This document shows, in pieces, positions 50,529 to 58,062 of a stretch of 64,000 nucleotides of DNA. The DNA lies in assembly GCF_000686945.1 (NCBI RefSeq), contig NZ_JMME01000012.1, forward strand, positions 1 through 64,000. Reading direction: 5' to 3'. The translations under genes and the position numbers were made by a program. The stretch comes from Selenomonas sp. AE3005 (GTDB lineage Bacteria > Bacillota > Negativicutes > Selenomonadales > Selenomonadaceae). Below the pieces are notes generated by a model that worked only from the letters and a program-made list of their open reading frames with translations, was not told the origin of the DNA and did not search any database. Within the stretch, counting starts at the first letter, position 1. Each line of letters opens with the position of its first letter.

Positions 50529-50586
50529 TTTTTAGTGGTATATGTTACAATAACGATAAGCAAAAACTGGGGAAGGGGCAGACGTG

Positions 50587-53500
50587 ATGGCATATTCCAA
50601 TTTTGATTTTTTGGCGGAAAAATTCCCGGTATTGGCTCATTTGGGGCGGTTGGCAGAAAAGTATTTATACAGCGACTCCAATTCTTGCTTATTTAAATTG
50701 GGCATGATGGGGGAAACCATGATTAAACTGATGTTTGATTATGATGGGATTGAATTACCCCGAGAGGATAAAGCTGTAAATCGTATCAATAAATTACGGC
50801 ATGAAGAATTGCTGGATAGTGATATGGCGGCATTATTTCATGCTTTGCGGAAAGTACGTAATTTGGCGGGGCATGAAGGCTATGAATCAGTGGCCGAAGC
50901 CCGTAACTACCTGGGGATTACTTACAGTTTGGCGGAATGGTTTATGCAGACCTATGGCGATTACACATACAAAAATCGCCCTTTTGTCATGCCGGCAGAG
51001 AATCTCGAGCCAGTTAGGACAGATGTCGTCGCTGAGTCAGAGTTAGAAAAAATCCTCATGCAGCAAGCGGCGGAAAAGGCAGCCCAAGCTCCACGGGTAA
51101 AGAAAGCCGACAGACAGAAATACGCGCAAAAGGCTGCGAACAGGCGGTATAAATCCGAGGCAGAAACCCGTGTGCTCATTGATGAACAGTTACGGCAGGT
51201 GGGTTGGGAAGCTGATACGGAGAAACTGCGCTATAGCAAAGGAATAAGACCGCAAAAGGGGAGATGTATAGCCATTGCGGAATGGCCCACGGATTCTGCA
51301 AGTGGCAAAGGGGGCTTTGCAGATTATGCGCTGTTTATTGACTTAAAGCTGGTGGCTATCATCGAGGCCAAGGCCGAGCACAAAGACGTAGCTGCTGTTA
51401 TTGATGGGCAGTGCAAGGAATATCCCCAATATATCAAGGCCGAGCATAAGGAATATATTGCAGGCAAGTGGGGAAAGTATCAGGTGCCGTTCACTTTTGC
51501 TACCAATGGCAAGCCTTATTTGGAACAGCTGCGGACGAAATCAGGTATATGGTTCCTTGACCTGCGGAACAAGACCAACAGACCAGAACCCCTGCGTGGC
51601 TGGTTTAGTCCCTTGGGGCTGATGGAGCTTATGGCCCGTGATATTGGGGCTGGTGATGAAAAATTAAAGGCCATGCCCTATGCACTGCTGCAGGACCCGG
51701 ATGGCCTCAACCTGCGTCCTTATCAGGTGGCCGCTATTAGAGCGGCGGAAACAGCTATATTGAATGGTAGTCAGCGGATTTTGCTGGCCATGGCTACAGG
51801 TACAGGCAAGACCCGTACCGTGCTGGGCATGATTTACCGTTTTTTGAAAACAGGCCGTTTTCAGCGTATATTGTTCCTTGTTGACCGCAATTCTTTAGGA
51901 ACACAGGCGCATGATGTATTCAAGGATGTGAAACTTGAGGAGCTCATGTCCTTAAGCCAAATCTATAATATAAAAGGACTGGACGAAAAACTTATCGACA
52001 AAGAGACGAGAGTACAGGTCGCAACCGTGCAGGGCATGATACAGCGCATTCTTTATAATGATGATGAGGAAAAGCCTGCCGTGTCCGATTACGATCTGAT
52101 TATCGTAGATGAAGCACATCGTGGTTATACCTTGGATAAAATGATGGATGAGGCCGAGATTGTCTACCGCGATCAACGCGATTTCCAAAGCAAATATCGC
52201 GCTGTTATAGAGTATTTTACAGCGGTAAAAATTGCGCTTACGGCAACGCCGGCTTTGCATACTACCCAAATCTTTGGTGAGCCTGTGTTTAAATACACCT
52301 ACAGGGAAGCAGTAATTGATGGTTTTCTGGTGGATTATGACGCACCGCATATTATCAAGACTAGTCTGAGTGAAAGCGGTATTCATTATGCCAAGGGTGA
52401 CAGCATAGCTGTTTATGACCCGGCCACGGGAGAAATTACCAACAGTGAGGCCTTGGAAGATGAGCTGGATTTTGATGTAGAAAGTTTCAACCGTCAAATA
52501 ATCGTACCTGATTTTAACCGCAAGGTATTGGCAGAAATAGCCAAAGATATAGACCCCACAGATGAAAATGGGGGCAAGACCCTGATTTATGCGGTAAATG
52601 ATGCTCATGCTGATATGATTGTGGATATATTACGCGAAATTTACGCAGCTATGGATATTGATCAAGATGCTATTAAGAAGATAACAGGCAGTATCGAAAA
52701 CGGAAATCAAAAGAAAATACAGGAAGTTATCCGCTGTACGAAAAATAACCATTATCCCAGCATAATTGTAACCGTTGACCTGTTGACAACAGGTATTGAC
52801 ATTCCGTCTATCTGCCGTCTGGTATTTATGCGGCGAGTCAAATCGCGTATCTTGTTTGAGCAGATGTTGGGGCGTGCTACGCGTCTATGCCCGGAGATAG
52901 GCAAAGACCATTTTGAAATTTATGACCCCGTAGGTACTTTTGCCAGTTTGGAAAAGGTCAGTACTATGAAACCTGTCGTAGCGAATCCTGCGGCAACGAT
53001 TTCCGGACTTATAGATACTTTGATGGAAACGGCAGATGATGATAAGGCTGTCCTGACCCATCAGATAGAGCAGCTGCTGGCTAAAATACAGCGTAAAGGC
53101 CGCAAACTAACAAAGGAACAGGAAGAACAGTTCACCGCAATGACGGGCAGTAAGACTTATGCGGATTATGTTAAGCGCCTTTCAGAGCAGGAATGTGAAA
53201 ATGCCAAAGCGCAACTCATCAAAGACAAAGCGGCGTTTCGTTTTCTGGAAAGTTATGTTCAGCCACAAAGACCGGTTATCGTATCTGATAAAAAGGATAA
53301 AATTACTTATCATGGGAAAGCCTACGGAACAGGACAACAGCGCCCGGAAGATTATTTGGATGAGTTTACCGCCTATATTAAAGAAAATATAAATGAAGTG
53401 GCGGCATTAAACATCATCTGCACCAAACCGGCGGAACTTACCCGGCAGAGTTTGAAAGAACTTGCTATGCTGCTTGACCGTGAAGGCTATGCACCTGCTC

Positions 53501-53859
53501 AGCTTGATTCAGCGATAACAGCCCTTAACGCCGAAGAAGCCGGTGCGGATATCATCAGTATTATCCGTCGTTATGGTATTGGTGCCCGGCTTATGAATCA
53601 CAGAGAGAAAGTGGAGCAGGCCGTAAAACGGCTAAAAGCTAATCATAATTTCAACAAAATGCAGGAAACATGGATAAAGCTTATGCAGGATTACCTTATC
53701 AATGAGCCCGTACTGAACAGGGATTCGCTGGATGAGGATCCCCGTTTGCGCAAACGGGGCGGGTCAGCGCAGGCGGATAAATTGCTGAATGGTGAACTGG
53801 GAAATATCATTGCAGAACTAAATGACTATATGTATGACGATGGAGGCAGAAGCGCGTGA
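50587..53859 (+). CDS. hsdR: Type I restriction enzyme R subunit
   Basis: A 1090-aa motor and nuclease subunit. An N-terminal helical DUF4145-like domain (about 1-125) precedes a PD-(D/E)xK nuclease (about 190-300) with FADYALFIDLKLVAIIEAK. The SF2 translocase (about 375-850) has Walker A MATGTGKTRT, IIVDEAHRGY, LTATPALH and motif VI EQMLGRATR. A C-terminal EcoEI-type domain (about 900-1085) follows. It cuts unmodified DNA remote from the recognition site. A GTG two codons upstream (50584) is an alternative start. It overlaps hsdM by 4 bp. Confidence 0.95.
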   Translation: MAYSNFDFLAEKFPVLAHLGRLAEKYLYSDSNSCLFKLGMMGETMIKLMFDYDGIELPREDKAVNRINKLRHEELLDSDMAALFHALRKVRNLAGHEGYESVAEARNYLGITYSLAEWFMQTYGDYTYKNRPFVMPAENLEPVRTDVVAESELEKILMQQAAEKAAQAPRVKKADRQKYAQKAANRRYKSEAETRVLIDEQLRQVGWEADTEKLRYSKGIRPQKGRCIAIAEWPTDSASGKGGFADYALFIDLKLVAIIEAKAEHKDVAAVIDGQCKEYPQYIKAEHKEYIAGKWGKYQVPFTFATNGKPYLEQLRTKSGIWFLDLRNKTNRPEPLRGWFSPLGLMELMARDIGAGDEKLKAMPYALLQDPDGLNLRPYQVAAIRAAETAILNGSQRILLAMATGTGKTRTVLGMIYRFLKTGRFQRILFLVDRNSLGTQAHDVFKDVKLEELMSLSQIYNIKGLDEKLIDKETRVQVATVQGMIQRILYNDDEEKPAVSDYDLIIVDEAHRGYTLDKMMDEAEIVYRDQRDFQSKYRAVIEYFTAVKIALTATPALHTTQIFGEPVFKYTYREAVIDGFLVDYDAPHIIKTSLSESGIHYAKGDSIAVYDPATGEITNSEALEDELDFDVESFNRQIIVPDFNRKVLAEIAKDIDPTDENGGKTLIYAVNDAHADMIVDILREIYAAMDIDQDAIKKITGSIENGNQKKIQEVIRCTKNNHYPSIIVTVDLLTTGIDIPSICRLVFMRRVKSRILFEQMLGRATRLCPEIGKDHFEIYDPVGTFASLEKVSTMKPVVANPAATISGLIDTLMETADDDKAVLTHQIEQLLAKIQRKGRKLTKEQEEQFTAMTGSKTYADYVKRLSEQECENAKAQLIKDKAAFRFLESYVQPQRPVIVSDKKDKITYHGKAYGTGQQRPEDYLDEFTAYIKENINEVAALNIICTKPAELTRQSLKELAMLLDREGYAPAQLDSAITALNAEEAGADIISIIRRYGIGARLMNHREKVEQAVKRLKANHNFNKMQETWIKLMQDYLINEPVLNRDSLDEDPRLRKRGGSAQADKLLNGELGNIIAELNDYMYDDGGRSA

Positions 53860-55280
53860 CAACACAGGAGATTGTAGGCAAATTATGGAAACTTTGTGAT
53901 GTACTGCGTGATGATGGTATTACCTATCATCAGTATGTGACAGAGCTTACCTATATCTTGTTTTTGAAAATGGCCAAAGAGACAGGCGCGGAAAACAGCA
54001 TTCCCGAGGGGTACCGGTGGAATGACCTGGCCGTAAAGGATGGTCTGGAACTAAAAAAATTCTATAAGAAACTGTTGGAGTATCTGGGTACGGAATGTCA
54101 GGGACGCATTCGCGAAATCTATAACGGAGCCAGTACCAGCATCGACGAACCGGCCAATCTCAAAAAGCTTATTACTTCCATTGATGAACTGGACTGGTAT
54201 AGTGCCAGAGAGGAAGGCTTGGGTAATCTCTATGAAGGGTTGTTGGAGAAAAACGCCAATGAGAAGAAATCTGGTGCTGGACAGTATTTCACGCCGCGTC
54301 CGCTAATTGATGTGATGACGAAGCTTATCAAACCACAGGCAGGGGAGAAGTGTAATGATCCGGCCTGCGGTACTTTTGGCTTTATGATAGCTGCCTTCCA
54401 ATATGTTTACGAACATACCAACAGTTTTATGGATCTTGATGGTGACCAGTCACAGTTTGAATATGAAAAGGCTTTTACCGGTTGTGAACTGGTACACGAT
54501 ACGCATCGGTTGGCACTGATGAATGCCATGCTGCACGACATTGAGGGAAAGATTACGTTAGGTGATACCCTCTCGCCTTTGGGCAAGTTTCAGACCGGCT
54601 ATGATGTGGTGCTGACCAATCCGCCGTTTGGGACGAAGAAGGGCGGCGAACGCGCTACGCGTGATGATTTGGAAGTGCTTACCAGTAACAAGCAGCTGAA
54701 CTTTTTGCAGCATATCTACAAGAGTCTTAACAAAAATGGCCGGGCGGCGGTAGTCCTGCCGGATAATGTGCTCTTTGCCGATGGTGATGGGGCTAAAATC
54801 CGTGCGAACCTCATGCACAAGTGCAATCTTCACACCATTTTACGTCTGCCGACAGGTATTTTCTATGCGCAGGGTGTTAAAACGAATGTGCTGTTCTTTA
54901 CCAGAGGGACGACGGATAAGGATAATACCAAGGAAGTTTGGTTCTACGACCTGCGCACCAATATGCCGTCCTTCGGCAAGACCAATCCCTTGAAGCAGGA
55001 GCACTTCGCGGACTTTATGAAGGCCTACGAAGCCGAGGACAGAAACAAGGTGGAGGACGAACGCTGGAGCGTGGTGAGCCGCGCAGAAATCGCGGCCAAG
55101 GGAGACAGCCTTGACCTGGGACTCATCAAAGATGACAGCATCGTGGATTACGAAGACCTGCCTGACCCATTGGAAGCTGCGGAGAATGCTGCCGATACAT
55201 TGGAAGAAGCCGTAGATATGTTGCGGGCGGTGGCTAAAGAGCTGAAACAGTTGGAGGCGTATGAAATATCCCTAAGATAA
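53856..55280 (+). CDS. hsdM: Type I restriction-modification methylase subunit
   Basis: A 474-aa N6-adenine methyltransferase. The N-terminal helical HsdM_N domain (about 5-120) is followed by the catalytic domain: GQYFTPRPLIDVMTKL, SAM motif I NDPACGTFGFMIAAF, and motif IV VVLTNPPFGTKK. The NPPF tetrapeptide marks N6-adenine methylation. The GTG start lies inside the end of hsdR. It makes the protective mark with HsdS and is part of the restriction complex. Confidence 0.95.
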   Translation: MTTQEIVGKLWKLCDVLRDDGITYHQYVTELTYILFLKMAKETGAENSIPEGYRWNDLAVKDGLELKKFYKKLLEYLGTECQGRIREIYNGASTSIDEPANLKKLITSIDELDWYSAREEGLGNLYEGLLEKNANEKKSGAGQYFTPRPLIDVMTKLIKPQAGEKCNDPACGTFGFMIAAFQYVYEHTNSFMDLDGDQSQFEYEKAFTGCELVHDTHRLALMNAMLHDIEGKITLGDTLSPLGKFQTGYDVVLTNPPFGTKKGGERATRDDLEVLTSNKQLNFLQHIYKSLNKNGRAAVVLPDNVLFADGDGAKIRANLMHKCNLHTILRLPTGIFYAQGVKTNVLFFTRGTTDKDNTKEVWFYDLRTNMPSFGKTNPLKQEHFADFMKAYEAEDRNKVEDERWSVVSRAEIAAKGDSLDLGLIKDDSIVDYEDLPDPLEAAENAADTLEEAVDMLRAVAKELKQLEAYEISLR

Positions 55281-55313
55281 TAAGAGGCAAATAGAATATG
55301 GAGGAATTGTAAG

Positions 55314-55625
55314 ATGGCTGATATAGATGCTCGTGTTTTCACATTGGAAAACATTACGGCGCTGGTTAAGCCGGTAGCTGAAAAATATCATGTTAAGGAA
55401 ATATATCTGTTTGGCTCTTATGCACGGGGCGAGGCAGATGAGAATAGTGACTTGGATTTTTTGGTTTTTGGTGGTGAAGGATTCAAGCTGACTAGTGTAT
55501 TGGCCTTAGGCGAGGAGTTACGAGAAGTCCTCAAGAAAAAAGTTGATATATTTGAAATTCGGGAAGTTAACCAGGATAGCGATTTTTACAGAACTATTAT
55601 GAGGGAAAAGGTGTTAGTGGCATGA
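55314..55625 (+). CDS. MNT-type nucleotidyltransferase (putative type VII antitoxin)
   Basis: A 103-aa minimal nucleotidyltransferase with GSYARGEADENSDLDFLV (about 40-57), giving the GSx10DxD catalytic motif, and a third acidic residue in KVDIFEI. GGAGG precedes the ATG. It overlaps the HEPT gene by 4 bp. In characterised MntA/HepT systems the antitoxin adds AMP units to a tyrosine of the HEPT toxin. It sits between hsdM and hsdS, 33 bp after hsdM. Confidence 0.9.
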   Translation: MADIDARVFTLENITALVKPVAEKYHVKEIYLFGSYARGEADENSDLDFLVFGGEGFKLTSVLALGEELREVLKKKVDIFEIREVNQDSDFYRTIMREKVLVA

Positions 55626-55963
55626 AACATTCTGACCAACAACGGGTTAACAAGATTTATGAGTATGCCAGCAAGTTAACTAAATATGTGCGAGATAATA
55701 ACATTACCCGTGAAGCTCTGCTGACGGATTTTTCTTTGCAGTGGCTGGTAACAACACCACTATACAACATCGGTGAACATGCATATAATTTATCAGCCGA
55801 ATATAAAGCCGAGCATAATGATATACCTTGGACCATGATTTCCGGTTTAAGGCATCGCTTAGTCCATGATTATGATGGTACGAACTGGAAAATGATTGTG
55901 GAAGTGGTATTTGACGATATACCTGCTTTACTAGTACAGTTAGAAGAGTTGGTGGAGAAGTAG
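55622..55963 (+). CDS. HepT-like (DUF86) ribonuclease toxin
   Basis: A 113-aa helical HEPT protein. GLRHRLVHDYDG (about 77-88) supplies the RNase motif R-x4-H-x-Y, with the tyrosine that MntA would AMPylate. It partners the preceding nucleotidyltransferase (ATGA overlap). In known pairs the free toxin cleaves tRNA or mRNA. Its place inside a restriction operon suggests addiction or defence backup for the hsd genes (inference). Confidence 0.9.
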   Translation: MKHSDQQRVNKIYEYASKLTKYVRDNNITREALLTDFSLQWLVTTPLYNIGEHAYNLSAEYKAEHNDIPWTMISGLRHRLVHDYDGTNWKMIVEVVFDDIPALLVQLEELVEK

Positions 55964-56139
55964 CCATATTTTTCGAAGTGCTTGGGCGTGGGGCAGATAC
56001 TTGTGCTTGCGCTTAGCCGTCTGGCAAAAAGCAGTTATTAACGCCTAAAGTCAAACGCTCCCGTGCAACAGTCTCTCCACGCCGCTCAACAAAGGAAGAA
56101 AGCGGATAATATCAACAAACACGAAAGGTGCCGAGTATC

Positions 56140-57480
56140 ATGGCAAAGAAACAACAGACAATAGAAGAAAAATTACAAGCGGCACTGGTGCCAGTCGAGG
56201 AACAGCCATATAAGGTGCCGGAGAATTGGTGCTGGGTGAGGTTGGGGCGTTTGGCAAATGTCAAGGGGGGAAAACGTGTTCCAAAGGGAAATAGCTTAGT
56301 GGATGAAAAAACCAATCATCCATATATAAGGGTGACGGATTTTCAAGACATGGGAATTGATGTTTCTGCGATAAAGTACATTGATGATGTAGTGTTTGAA
56401 AAAATCAAGAATTATACTATTGCTCGAACAGACATATATATATCTATTGCAGGAAGCATAGGTAAGGTAGGAATAATTCCAGAGTTTTTAGATGGTGCTA
56501 ATCTTACCGAAAATGCTGCAAAGATAACCAATATAAATGGCGTTACGCAAAAGATGCTTTTATGGTATTTGACTTGTAATAATGCGCAAAATCAAATGAT
56601 TGGTGCTACAATATCAACCACGCAACCGAAATTGGCTTTGTTTAGAATTGAAAATATTTCTGTTCCATTGCCCCCATGTAACGAACAATATCGCATAGTC
56701 GCTCGTATCGAATCCCTTTTTGCCAAGCTGGACGAAGCCAAAGAGAAAATACAGGAAGTTCTTGACGGAGCAGACCTGCGTCGTGCCGCTATTCTTCATC
56801 AGGCTTTCACAGGCAAGCTGACGGAGAAGTGGAGACGGGAAAATGGAGTGAGTGATGGAAGCTGGGATAAAGTACCATTAGGAAATGTTATAGAATTATT
56901 GTCGGGGCAGGATTTTAAGCCAACAGACTATAATGACGCAAAAAAAGGTATTCCATATATAACAGGAGCTAGCAATTTTGATGATGGCGTGATTATCAAT
57001 CGTTGGACAGAAAAGCCAACTGTGATAGCTAAAAGAGATGATATCTTGTTAGTTTGTAAAGGCTCGGGGTATGGAAAGACAATTATTGCAGATTTTGAGC
57101 AGGCACATATTGCTAGACAGATAATGGCATTAAGAGTAAAAGAGGGTATAATTAACAAATATGTGCTTTATTTCTTGATGGATAAGTATGATGAGATAAG
57201 AAATAGTGGGCAGGGATTGATACCAGGGATTTCAAGAAAAGTTGTACTAGGTATGAACATATTTAAGATATCAATGCCGGAACAACAGGAAATCGTCCGC
57301 CTGCTGGACAATCTGCTCTCCCGTGAACAATCAACGGTCACCGCTTGCGAAGAGGCCCTGACTACCATCGACACCCTCAAAAAATCCATCCTCGCCCGCG
57401 CCTTCCGTGGCGAGCTGGGCACAAATGACCATAGCGAAGCCAGCGCCAAAGAGTTGCTGCAAGAAATACTAGCAAGCTAG
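56140..57480 (+). CDS. hsdS: Type I restriction-modification specificity subunit
   Basis: A 446-aa specificity protein with two target recognition domains. TRD1 (about 20-180) begins VPENWCWVRLGRLANVKGG. A conserved helical spacer (about 187-235: RIVARIESLFAKLDEAKEKI, then DLRRAAILHQAFTGKLTEKW) separates it from TRD2 (about 245-390), and a second helix (about 395-440) repeats the spacer (EQQEIVRLLDNLL, DTLKKSILARAFRGEL). The TRDs are visibly more AT-rich than the spacers, as expected of shuffled specificity modules. The start at 56140 has AAAGGTG upstream. It is separated from hsdM by the MNT/HEPT pair and 176 bp of non-coding DNA. Confidence 0.94.
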   Translation: MAKKQQTIEEKLQAALVPVEEQPYKVPENWCWVRLGRLANVKGGKRVPKGNSLVDEKTNHPYIRVTDFQDMGIDVSAIKYIDDVVFEKIKNYTIARTDIYISIAGSIGKVGIIPEFLDGANLTENAAKITNINGVTQKMLLWYLTCNNAQNQMIGATISTTQPKLALFRIENISVPLPPCNEQYRIVARIESLFAKLDEAKEKIQEVLDGADLRRAAILHQAFTGKLTEKWRRENGVSDGSWDKVPLGNVIELLSGQDFKPTDYNDAKKGIPYITGASNFDDGVIINRWTEKPTVIAKRDDILLVCKGSGYGKTIIADFEQAHIARQIMALRVKEGIINKYVLYFLMDKYDEIRNSGQGLIPGISRKVVLGMNIFKISMPEQQEIVRLLDNLLSREQSTVTACEEALTTIDTLKKSILARAFRGELGTNDHSEASAKELLQEILAS

Positions 57481-57490
57481 AGTGCAGAAT

Positions 57491-57531
57491 TTGACTAGTC
57501 AAACTTGACCTGTCAAAACTTGACAAGTCAA
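57491..57531. repeat. Three tandem TTGAC-NN-GTCAA palindromes
   Basis: TTGACTAGTCAA (57491-57502), TTGACCTGTCAA (57505-57516) and TTGACAAGTCAA (57520-57531) lie at centre spacings of 14 and 15 bp directly after hsdS. The centres differ while the arms are constant, as in protein-binding sites. Confidence 0.8.
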
Positions 57532-57548
57532 ATCCAGCCAGACAACTA

Positions 57549-57752
57549 GCCGCCAGCGGGAATGCTTGCCAAAGCGGAGCGTCAGGCGAGGGAGCGTAAA
57601 GAAAAAACTCTTTTGCCCACCTTAATATCCTGTCGAAAAGTCTACTGTTTGAGCATAGCGAGTTTTGACTTTTCGGCATGGTTAGTTAAGGGACAAAAGA
57701 GTTTTTTTAGCGAGCCACCGAGCACCGCGTGGCAAGCATTCCCACTGGCGGC
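57549..57752. repeat. 204-bp nested inverted repeat (MITE-like element)
   Basis: The outer arms of 23 bp (57549-57571, starting GCCGCCAGCGGG, and 57730-57752, ending ACTGGCGGC) differ by one base. Inner arms AAAAAACTCTTTTG-CCC (57602-57617) and GGGACAAAAGAGTTTTTT (57689-57706) match with one gap. Innermost TCGAAAAGTC (57633-57642) pairs with GACTTTTCGG (57667-57676). The whole could fold into one long hairpin. No ORF of its own; resembles a non-autonomous palindromic element or a structured RNA. Confidence 0.75.
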
Positions 57753-57783
57753 GTATTAGACAAATAAGGCGGTGGTAAATAAA

Positions 57784-57872
57784 CAGCCCGACTTCCCGAA
57801 GAAAGTCAGGCTTTTAGGACGAATGAAATTGTATAGGCCGTGAGGGAGTGGTTACCCTAACGGCTTTTTACT
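57784..57872 (+). terminator. Two successive terminator-like hairpins
   Basis: AGCCCGACTT/AAGTCAGGCT with TTTTA (57784-57816), and GCCGTGAGGG/ACCCTAACGGC-type stem followed by CTTTTTAC (57837-57872). They insulate rplU from the hsd locus. Confidence 0.75.
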
Positions 57873-57944: not shown

Positions 57945-58062
57945 TAGACGCATGAAGTGCGTCTTGATTTGGGTTTTAAAAGCCCATCCCCAACCGCACA
58001 GCGAGGCTGTTGAAACTGCCTTGTGGCAGTGCCGTAGTTGGCGAGTAATCTTATAGGGAGGT
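57945..58062 (+). promoter_or_regulatory. Ribosomal protein L21 leader-like structured 5' UTR
   Basis: A roughly 125-nt leader between the promoter and rplU with three visible hairpins: GACGCA/TGCGTC (57947-57963), GGGTTTT/AAAAGCCC (57971-57985) and ACTGCC/GGCAGT (58015-58030). CCCCAAC and GTTGG near the ends can pair to enclose the last. Position and style fit the known Firmicutes L21 leader, thought to give autoregulation by L21. Not confirmed by a covariance model here. Confidence 0.65.

Follow-up and report, generated by a model that had tools for sequence, protein, structure and literature searches.

Long hairpins that recur in several phyla are already known, skipping-rope RNA (RF02924) being one such family, and the hairpin described here is likewise long and likewise found in several phyla. 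In E. coli, matS is given as GTGACRNYGTCAC, with 23 sites (PMC6907758). REP/REPIN elements with TnpA-REP (RAYT) are presented in PMC6006769 as dispersed extragenic hairpins that often form inverted pairs, a trait that they share with the hairpins of this study, and GNA loops with at least two G-C pairs are described in PMC4686876 as extraordinarily stable DNA mini-hairpins.

The window, that is, the whole stretch of 64,000 nucleotides that was analysed, carries behind hsdS three copies of the palindrome TTGACNNGTCAA followed by a nested hairpin with a conserved tip. Like matS, TTGACNNGTCAA is a short palindrome with a TGAC..GTCA frame that is concentrated on the replication-terminus side, but its consensus is distinct from that of matS and it is arrayed at 12–15 bp and spans about half of the chromosome. 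MatP (PF06303) had no match at E 0.1 in any of the 22 genus genomes, while the E. coli control was detected, and MatP is not supported as the binder of the palindrome. A literature search found no published name for the TTGACNNGTCAA motif, and for the tip core and side boxes it gave only titles that appear unrelated, and no name.

The hairpin family differs from REP/REPIN, as described in PMC6006769, in its cross-phylum tip and locus-specific arms. By inspection, no GTAG or GTGG was present 5' of the hairpin foot in 14 aligned copies, in which the feet on the two strands are ACTAG/CC and TAC/GCC. The Y1 HUH transposase (PF01797) had no match in the tip carriers G005, G010, G011 and G017; other tip-carrying genomes have IS200-sized matches, in the genome of the window (G000) the one match is partial and carries a stop, and for Bacteroides ihuae, a species with the tip (L113), PF01797 was not detected in the control genome. 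A Y1/RAYT transposase was rejected as the driver because it is missing from several tip-carrying genomes. The covariance model of skipping-rope RNA matches elsewhere in G000 (C10:95028-95117, 56.4 bits, above the cut-off) and not the window hairpin, which was absent from the matches with E up to 10 (best 150 of 202 candidates scored) and from the window matches with E up to 1, so that this identity is not supported. No Rfam family reached its gathering score over the hairpins of the window and of the loci scanned, where only sub-threshold microRNA-type matches were obtained. Unlike integron attC, the hairpin family has its conserved part at the tip and not at the ends.

Layout and folding of the locus behind hsdS

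The palindrome array (57491..57531, no strand assigned) consists of three exact TTGACNNGTCAA copies that a pattern scan placed at 57491, 57505 and 57520, in steps of 14 and 15 bp, in agreement with the even spacing described in the earlier note. The hairpin element (CAACTAG...GCGTA), a member of the subfamily that we call family 1, extends from 57543 to 57755 with its core (tip) strand on the plus strand, and was aligned with 13 other copies. An inverted-repeat search recovered the nested arms that had been described, all given on the plus strand: outer arms of 23 nt and 96% complementarity at 57549..57571 and 57730..57752, second arms at 57602..57618 and 57691..57707, the latter followed by a run of seven T, and innermost arms at 57631..57642 and 57667..57678. 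On the same strand lie a 5' internal-loop box, AAAGCGGAGCGT...GCGTAAAGAA (57570..57603), which is kept across the hairpin family, and the near-universal tip CTGTTTGAGCATAGCGAGTTT (57645..57665), recognised by cross-phylum matches and by loop and pair counts. The window tip is CTGTYTGAGCGNAGCGAGTTT with one change and has the loop ATA against the usual GNA.

When folded as RNA, 57481-57810 formed a long hairpin and, over the palindromes, a second, small one (-134.7 kcal/mol, z -9.9), and none of 100 shuffles folded equally well, as had been anticipated from the arms. Folded alone as DNA, the 216-nt element had z -8.7 (plus strand) and -9.7 (minus strand), with 0 of 200 shuffles per strand as good. 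In line with the statement that the element has no ORF, the hairpin is non-coding: the sole ORF of at least 80 aa listed over it, of 100 aa on the minus strand (57377-57679) and overlapping hsdS, is taken as spurious.

Comparison with the relative G013 delimited a segment at 50535..57775 (no strand assigned) with hsdR, hsdM, two small genes, hsdS (names from translations), the palindromes and the hairpin. This segment has no counterpart in G013, where a permease gene directly adjoins the rplU leader, and GTGGT is found at both of its ends. The tip strand of the window copy is the same as that of hsdS and lies 165 bp beyond the hsdS stop; the closest antisense stop is 1310 bp away, which makes this copy an exception to the placement found in its clade (see below). 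Either the hairpin came in with the hsd island, or its antisense host gene was lost. Inside the hsd locus, an MNT-like nucleotidyltransferase gene and a HEPN-like gene (55314-55963), named from translations, are likely a toxin-antitoxin pair. Directly before rplU, 57982-58056 resembles the ribosomal protein L21 leader at a score below threshold, and the gap before this leader, a variable insertion spot, differs in sequence among G003, G004, G005, G010, G017 and G020.

Two dispersed features and the distribution of the palindrome

A search with the 262-bp query in 60 genomes, of which 22 (own included) belong to the genus and 38 do not, gave a match in 21; up to 12 candidates were scored per genome, so that copy numbers from this search are lower bounds. 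The hairpin was matched in the own genome and in eleven more genus members, the matches in seven others (G001, G002, G009, G012, G018, G019 and G021) were confined to the first 48 bases, that is, to the palindromes, and in G025 and G049, outside the genus, only the tip was matched. Separate pattern counts showed that palindrome and hairpin are each dispersed independently. These data show well that the palindrome array and the hairpin are two genome-wide features; the claim that they form one element is not supported, in view of the seven genus genomes with palindrome matches only, and of G010, where tips and palindromes mostly occupy opposite halves of the chromosome. A blastn search with the 216-bp hairpin element at E 1e-5 gave no match among 72,556 plasmid and 50,697 phage records.

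The palindrome is not confined to this place: the window holds 11 exact copies and 17 with up to one mismatch, against 1.6 expected and a maximum of 6 over 100 shuffles. Exact copies number 126 in G000, 214 in G010 and 105 in G017, against 4, 7 and 4 for a control with the reversed motif, and against the 23 matS sites given in PMC6907758 (a comparison that concerns G000 and G010). Nineteen of the 22 genus genomes have 44-214 copies, the low-copy members G007, G014 and G015 have 2, 4 and 6, and counts in the 38 non-genus genomes range over 0-7, the same as in their controls (0-7). The TTGACNNGTCAA motif is genus-specific.

In the closed relative G010, GC skew over 40 sampled stretches of 20 kb indicates an origin at about 0.53 Mb and a terminus at about 1.8 Mb. 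Of 59 sampled sites, 46 fall in the terminus half and 13 in the origin half. When site positions were ranked against those of the sampled stretches, the test reached only p 0.007, and this with clustered sites that are not mutually independent. On the 3.0-Mb contig of G017, 76 among the 86 sites listed (105 in the genome) lie at 0.8-2.4 Mb, around the skew maximum at about 1.5 Mb that marks the terminus. The sampled G010 sites are less often coding than the DNA as a whole (38/59, or 64%, vs 88%) and more often in gaps (19 vs 6.6 expected), with no preference for divergent gaps (2 vs 1.3 expected). A transcription-factor regulon was ruled against by this lack of promoter preference in G010.

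Adjacent sites are frequently 12-15 bp apart, also inside genes, and 37 of the 59 exact G010 sites have another site (up to one mismatch) within 60 bp. Intragenic arrays were found at L221:1617-1661, L226:12593-12650, L238:18253-18298, L220:16077-16106 and L256:6948-6978, in hosts that translations name as ftsK, mutL-like, helicase-like and a radical-SAM tail; they mainly follow 15-bp in-frame steps that code for xDxSx repeats. The ftsK ORF, where the array lies in the linker, carries one to four sites (up to one mismatch) in 10 of 21 genomes and none in the other 11, and the position is not the same in all carriers.

The genus-specific copy number, the terminus-half distribution, the presence of sites both within and between genes and the 12-15-bp phasing lead us to read the palindrome as a mark of a chromosome domain. 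A putative dimeric DNA-binding protein would bind the TTGACNNGTCAA arrays, and the bound sites would mark the terminus half in a MatP/matS-like manner with another sequence and another protein. The width of the TTGACNNGTCAA domain, about half of the chromosome and wider than a Ter macrodomain, counts against this reading.

Structure, placement and spread of the hairpin family

The multiple copies for which a check had been proposed were found: tips with up to one mismatch number 16 in G000, 31 in G010, 31 in G011, 13 in G017 and 8 in G004, with no control hits. Two of the 31 tips of G010 are the same place read twice, which leaves 30 distinct. The 4.7 kb compared at the end of its 2.83-Mb contig C1 repeat the start (L210, L317) with 99.9% identity, an untrimmed circular overlap.

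We aligned 14 copies (13 distinct) of the subfamily of the window on a structure from RNAalifold, with the tip pairs substituted by hand. The alignment has 68 pairs, 97.7% of cells paired and 22 pairs with both sides changed, counts that, like those of the mismatch and clade-placement sets below, come partly from the same locus in several species and are not independent events. Pairing, both-side changes and covariation score were each reached by 0 of 500 shuffles, whereas the number of pair types was equalled by 20 of 500; partners slid out of register were paired at 33-46% (38-41% for a shift of one column). The tip itself covaries: of its two pairs, the outer one reads G-C in 44 of 62 unique tips, A-T in 17 and A-C in one; the loop is GNA in 49, ANA in 12 and TGA in one. 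The tip could also fold as RNA. Read on the tip strand, stem mismatches are more often G.A than C.T, with 163:47 in the genus-centred set (43 rows, of which G025 and G049 contribute four) and 197:56 in 75 of 106 cross-phylum stems, and for this reason the tip strand is probably the fold under selection. The corresponding G.T to A.C ratios are 82:78 and 112:55. One copy, L028 (G011:C13:10691-10908), joins at its tip an arm of one subfamily to an arm of another, and looks as though two copies had recombined there.

Of 37 tips in the clade formed by G000 and its relatives, 33 come after an opposite-strand ORF, at 97-131 bp from its stop codon, and none has a same-strand stop within 160 bp. Four tips deviate, namely the window copy, a tip at 224 bp and two for which the search gave no opposite-strand stop. 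This placement at the ends of other genes argues against the suggestion that the hsd island uses the hairpin for integration. In G010, 25 of 32 listed tips (up to two mismatches, one place counted twice) are at 85-150 bp from such a stop. All 17 close tip pairs (less than 1 kb) are ordered minus then plus by hand count, as expected if there is one tip per convergent gene. Behind alr, G000, G008, G011 and G020 have a hairpin pair; in most genomes of the sister clade a short terminator-like hairpin takes this place, and G014 has almost no gap. A single intact tip is kept there in G005 and G016, in G010 and G003 the two members of the pair stand apart, with other sequence between them, and neither the pair nor, by eye, the same neighbour is present in G004, G013 and G017. 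The terminator-like stem GCCGCCAGC/GCTGGCGGC behind alr in G009 (L283) and G021 (L278) equals the outer arms that the window's subfamily has at this locus, a match that may reflect ancestry or chance.

When named genomes were scanned for exact copies of CTGTYTGAGCGNAGCGAGTTT, at least 118 stretches had one. Among the matches listed, the carriers named in 80 titles include Bacteroidota, Proteobacteria, Bacillota, Nitrospirota, one Vogelbacteria and one Gastranaerophilales genome, and many are metagenome bins; a Selenomonas ruminantium record (L067) has inner arms closely similar to those of the window hairpin. Two viral contigs also carry the tip. The arms that flank the tip exceed 99% of swapped-arm controls in complementarity in 78 of 114 cases; the remaining 36 are not set apart from the controls by this test, and arms at different loci are 31% identical. 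Cross-phylum tips are nearer to gene ends than to gene starts (34:10, for the 44 of 128 with a boundary within 150 bp), with a near even orientation of the nearest ends (19 antisense and 15 sense stops). In 28 of 132 cases the tip is followed within 260 bp by a second short motif that resembles a hairpin. In several Bacteroidota (L056, L063, L085, L095, L109 and others) its stems are TTTTGGTTACTTTTG/CAAAAGTAAC, and CTTGA[T/C/A] before it and [A/G/T]TCAAG in its loop, which covary by eye, could form a pseudoknot.

Readings of the hairpin and their meaning

Structure, covariation, placement at a fixed distance and the terminator-like hairpins that hold the alr place in sister species suggest that the family acts at gene ends. 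The hairpins would be bidirectional terminator/insulator cassettes, in which the selected folded form would be the tip strand, antisense to the gene served, as suggested by the G.A mismatches and the GNA-type mini-hairpin, and the tip may bind a factor. They resemble bidirectional intrinsic terminators in place, between a stop codon and a convergent gene, as do the terminator-like hairpins behind alr, and differ in being about 200 bp long and nested, with a conserved tip and short T runs. The longest T run in the scanned stretch beside the stems has a median of 4 in the tip sense and 3 in the antisense, and a terminator scan, whose 8-base loop limit would miss them, flagged no site inside the inner stems of the window hairpin; on these two grounds a plain terminator is disfavoured. 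Terminator function alone requires no conserved tip, which also counts against the terminator reading, as do the near even orientation to genes across phyla and the deviating placement of the window copy. We nevertheless favour, tentatively and at a little less than an even chance, that a putative terminus-half binding-site array and a gene-end terminator/insulator hairpin met by chance behind hsdS.

The main rival, which we consider unlikely on balance, sees the hairpin as a non-autonomous mobile element: a putative trans-acting recombinase that reads the tip would have inserted it, as folded single-stranded DNA, into terminator hairpins, whose stems then became the outer arms. It would account for one tip on unrelated arms across many phyla, for the GNA mini-hairpin (as described in PMC4686876) at the tip and the better folding of its strand, for the restriction of the pair behind alr to one clade, for the GCCGCCAGC...GCTGGCGGC stems that G009 and G021 share with the family-1 outer arms, although that match may be chance, and for the G011 copy that unites two subfamilies at the tip. 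Of the two marks of a MITE, inverted repeats are present, and a target-site duplication was not evident in the flanks of the alr and hsd loci, which are too diverged for a clean comparison; many copies stand at the same loci in several species, so that movement must be rare; and Y1 transposase is absent from G005, G010, G011 and G017. Among 798 ORFs at 120 tip loci no mobile-type gene recurs: the largest shared neighbour groups are ABC-type (8 loci), tRNA synthetase (5) and sensor kinase (5), generic families that rule against a linked autonomous gene.

It seems improbable that the two features are complementary chromosome-organising marks, hairpins or cruciforms for the origin half and palindromes for the terminus half, even though the origin half of G010 holds 26 of the 31 listed tips (25 of 30 distinct), none lies in 1.205-2.526 Mb, and the palindromes show the reverse pattern (Mann-Whitney p 1e-10). 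Two of 13 tips in G017 are near the terminus, the seven genus genomes with palindrome matches have no hairpin matches, and placement at gene ends accounts for the hairpins more directly. By hand count, 21 of 31 G010 tips are on the leading-strand template, a bias that gene orientation may explain. A trans-acting or antisense small RNA appears very improbable to us: compensatory changes in the stems and the excess of G.T over A.C in cross-phylum stems would fit it, but the two are about equal in the genus-centred set, gene orientation is near-random across phyla, no Rfam family matches, and the sole promoter-like site beside the window copy precedes rplU and occurs at chance rate. A broader reading, that CTGTYTGAGCGNAGCGAGTTT is the recognition sequence of a widely shared folded-DNA factor (a putative recombinase or gene-end binding protein), combined in the genus with marking of the chromosome by two unrelated repeat systems, of which tip hairpins would occupy the origin half and TTGACNNGTCAA arrays the terminus half, is in our judgement rather doubtful.

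A 21-nt tip kept across phyla on divergent arms implies a shared recogniser and provides an exact probe for finding one. With the palindrome, terminus-domain organisation can readily be tested in bacteria that lack MatP, and the three genus members without the motif and the seven with palindrome but without hairpin matches are natural controls for such a test.
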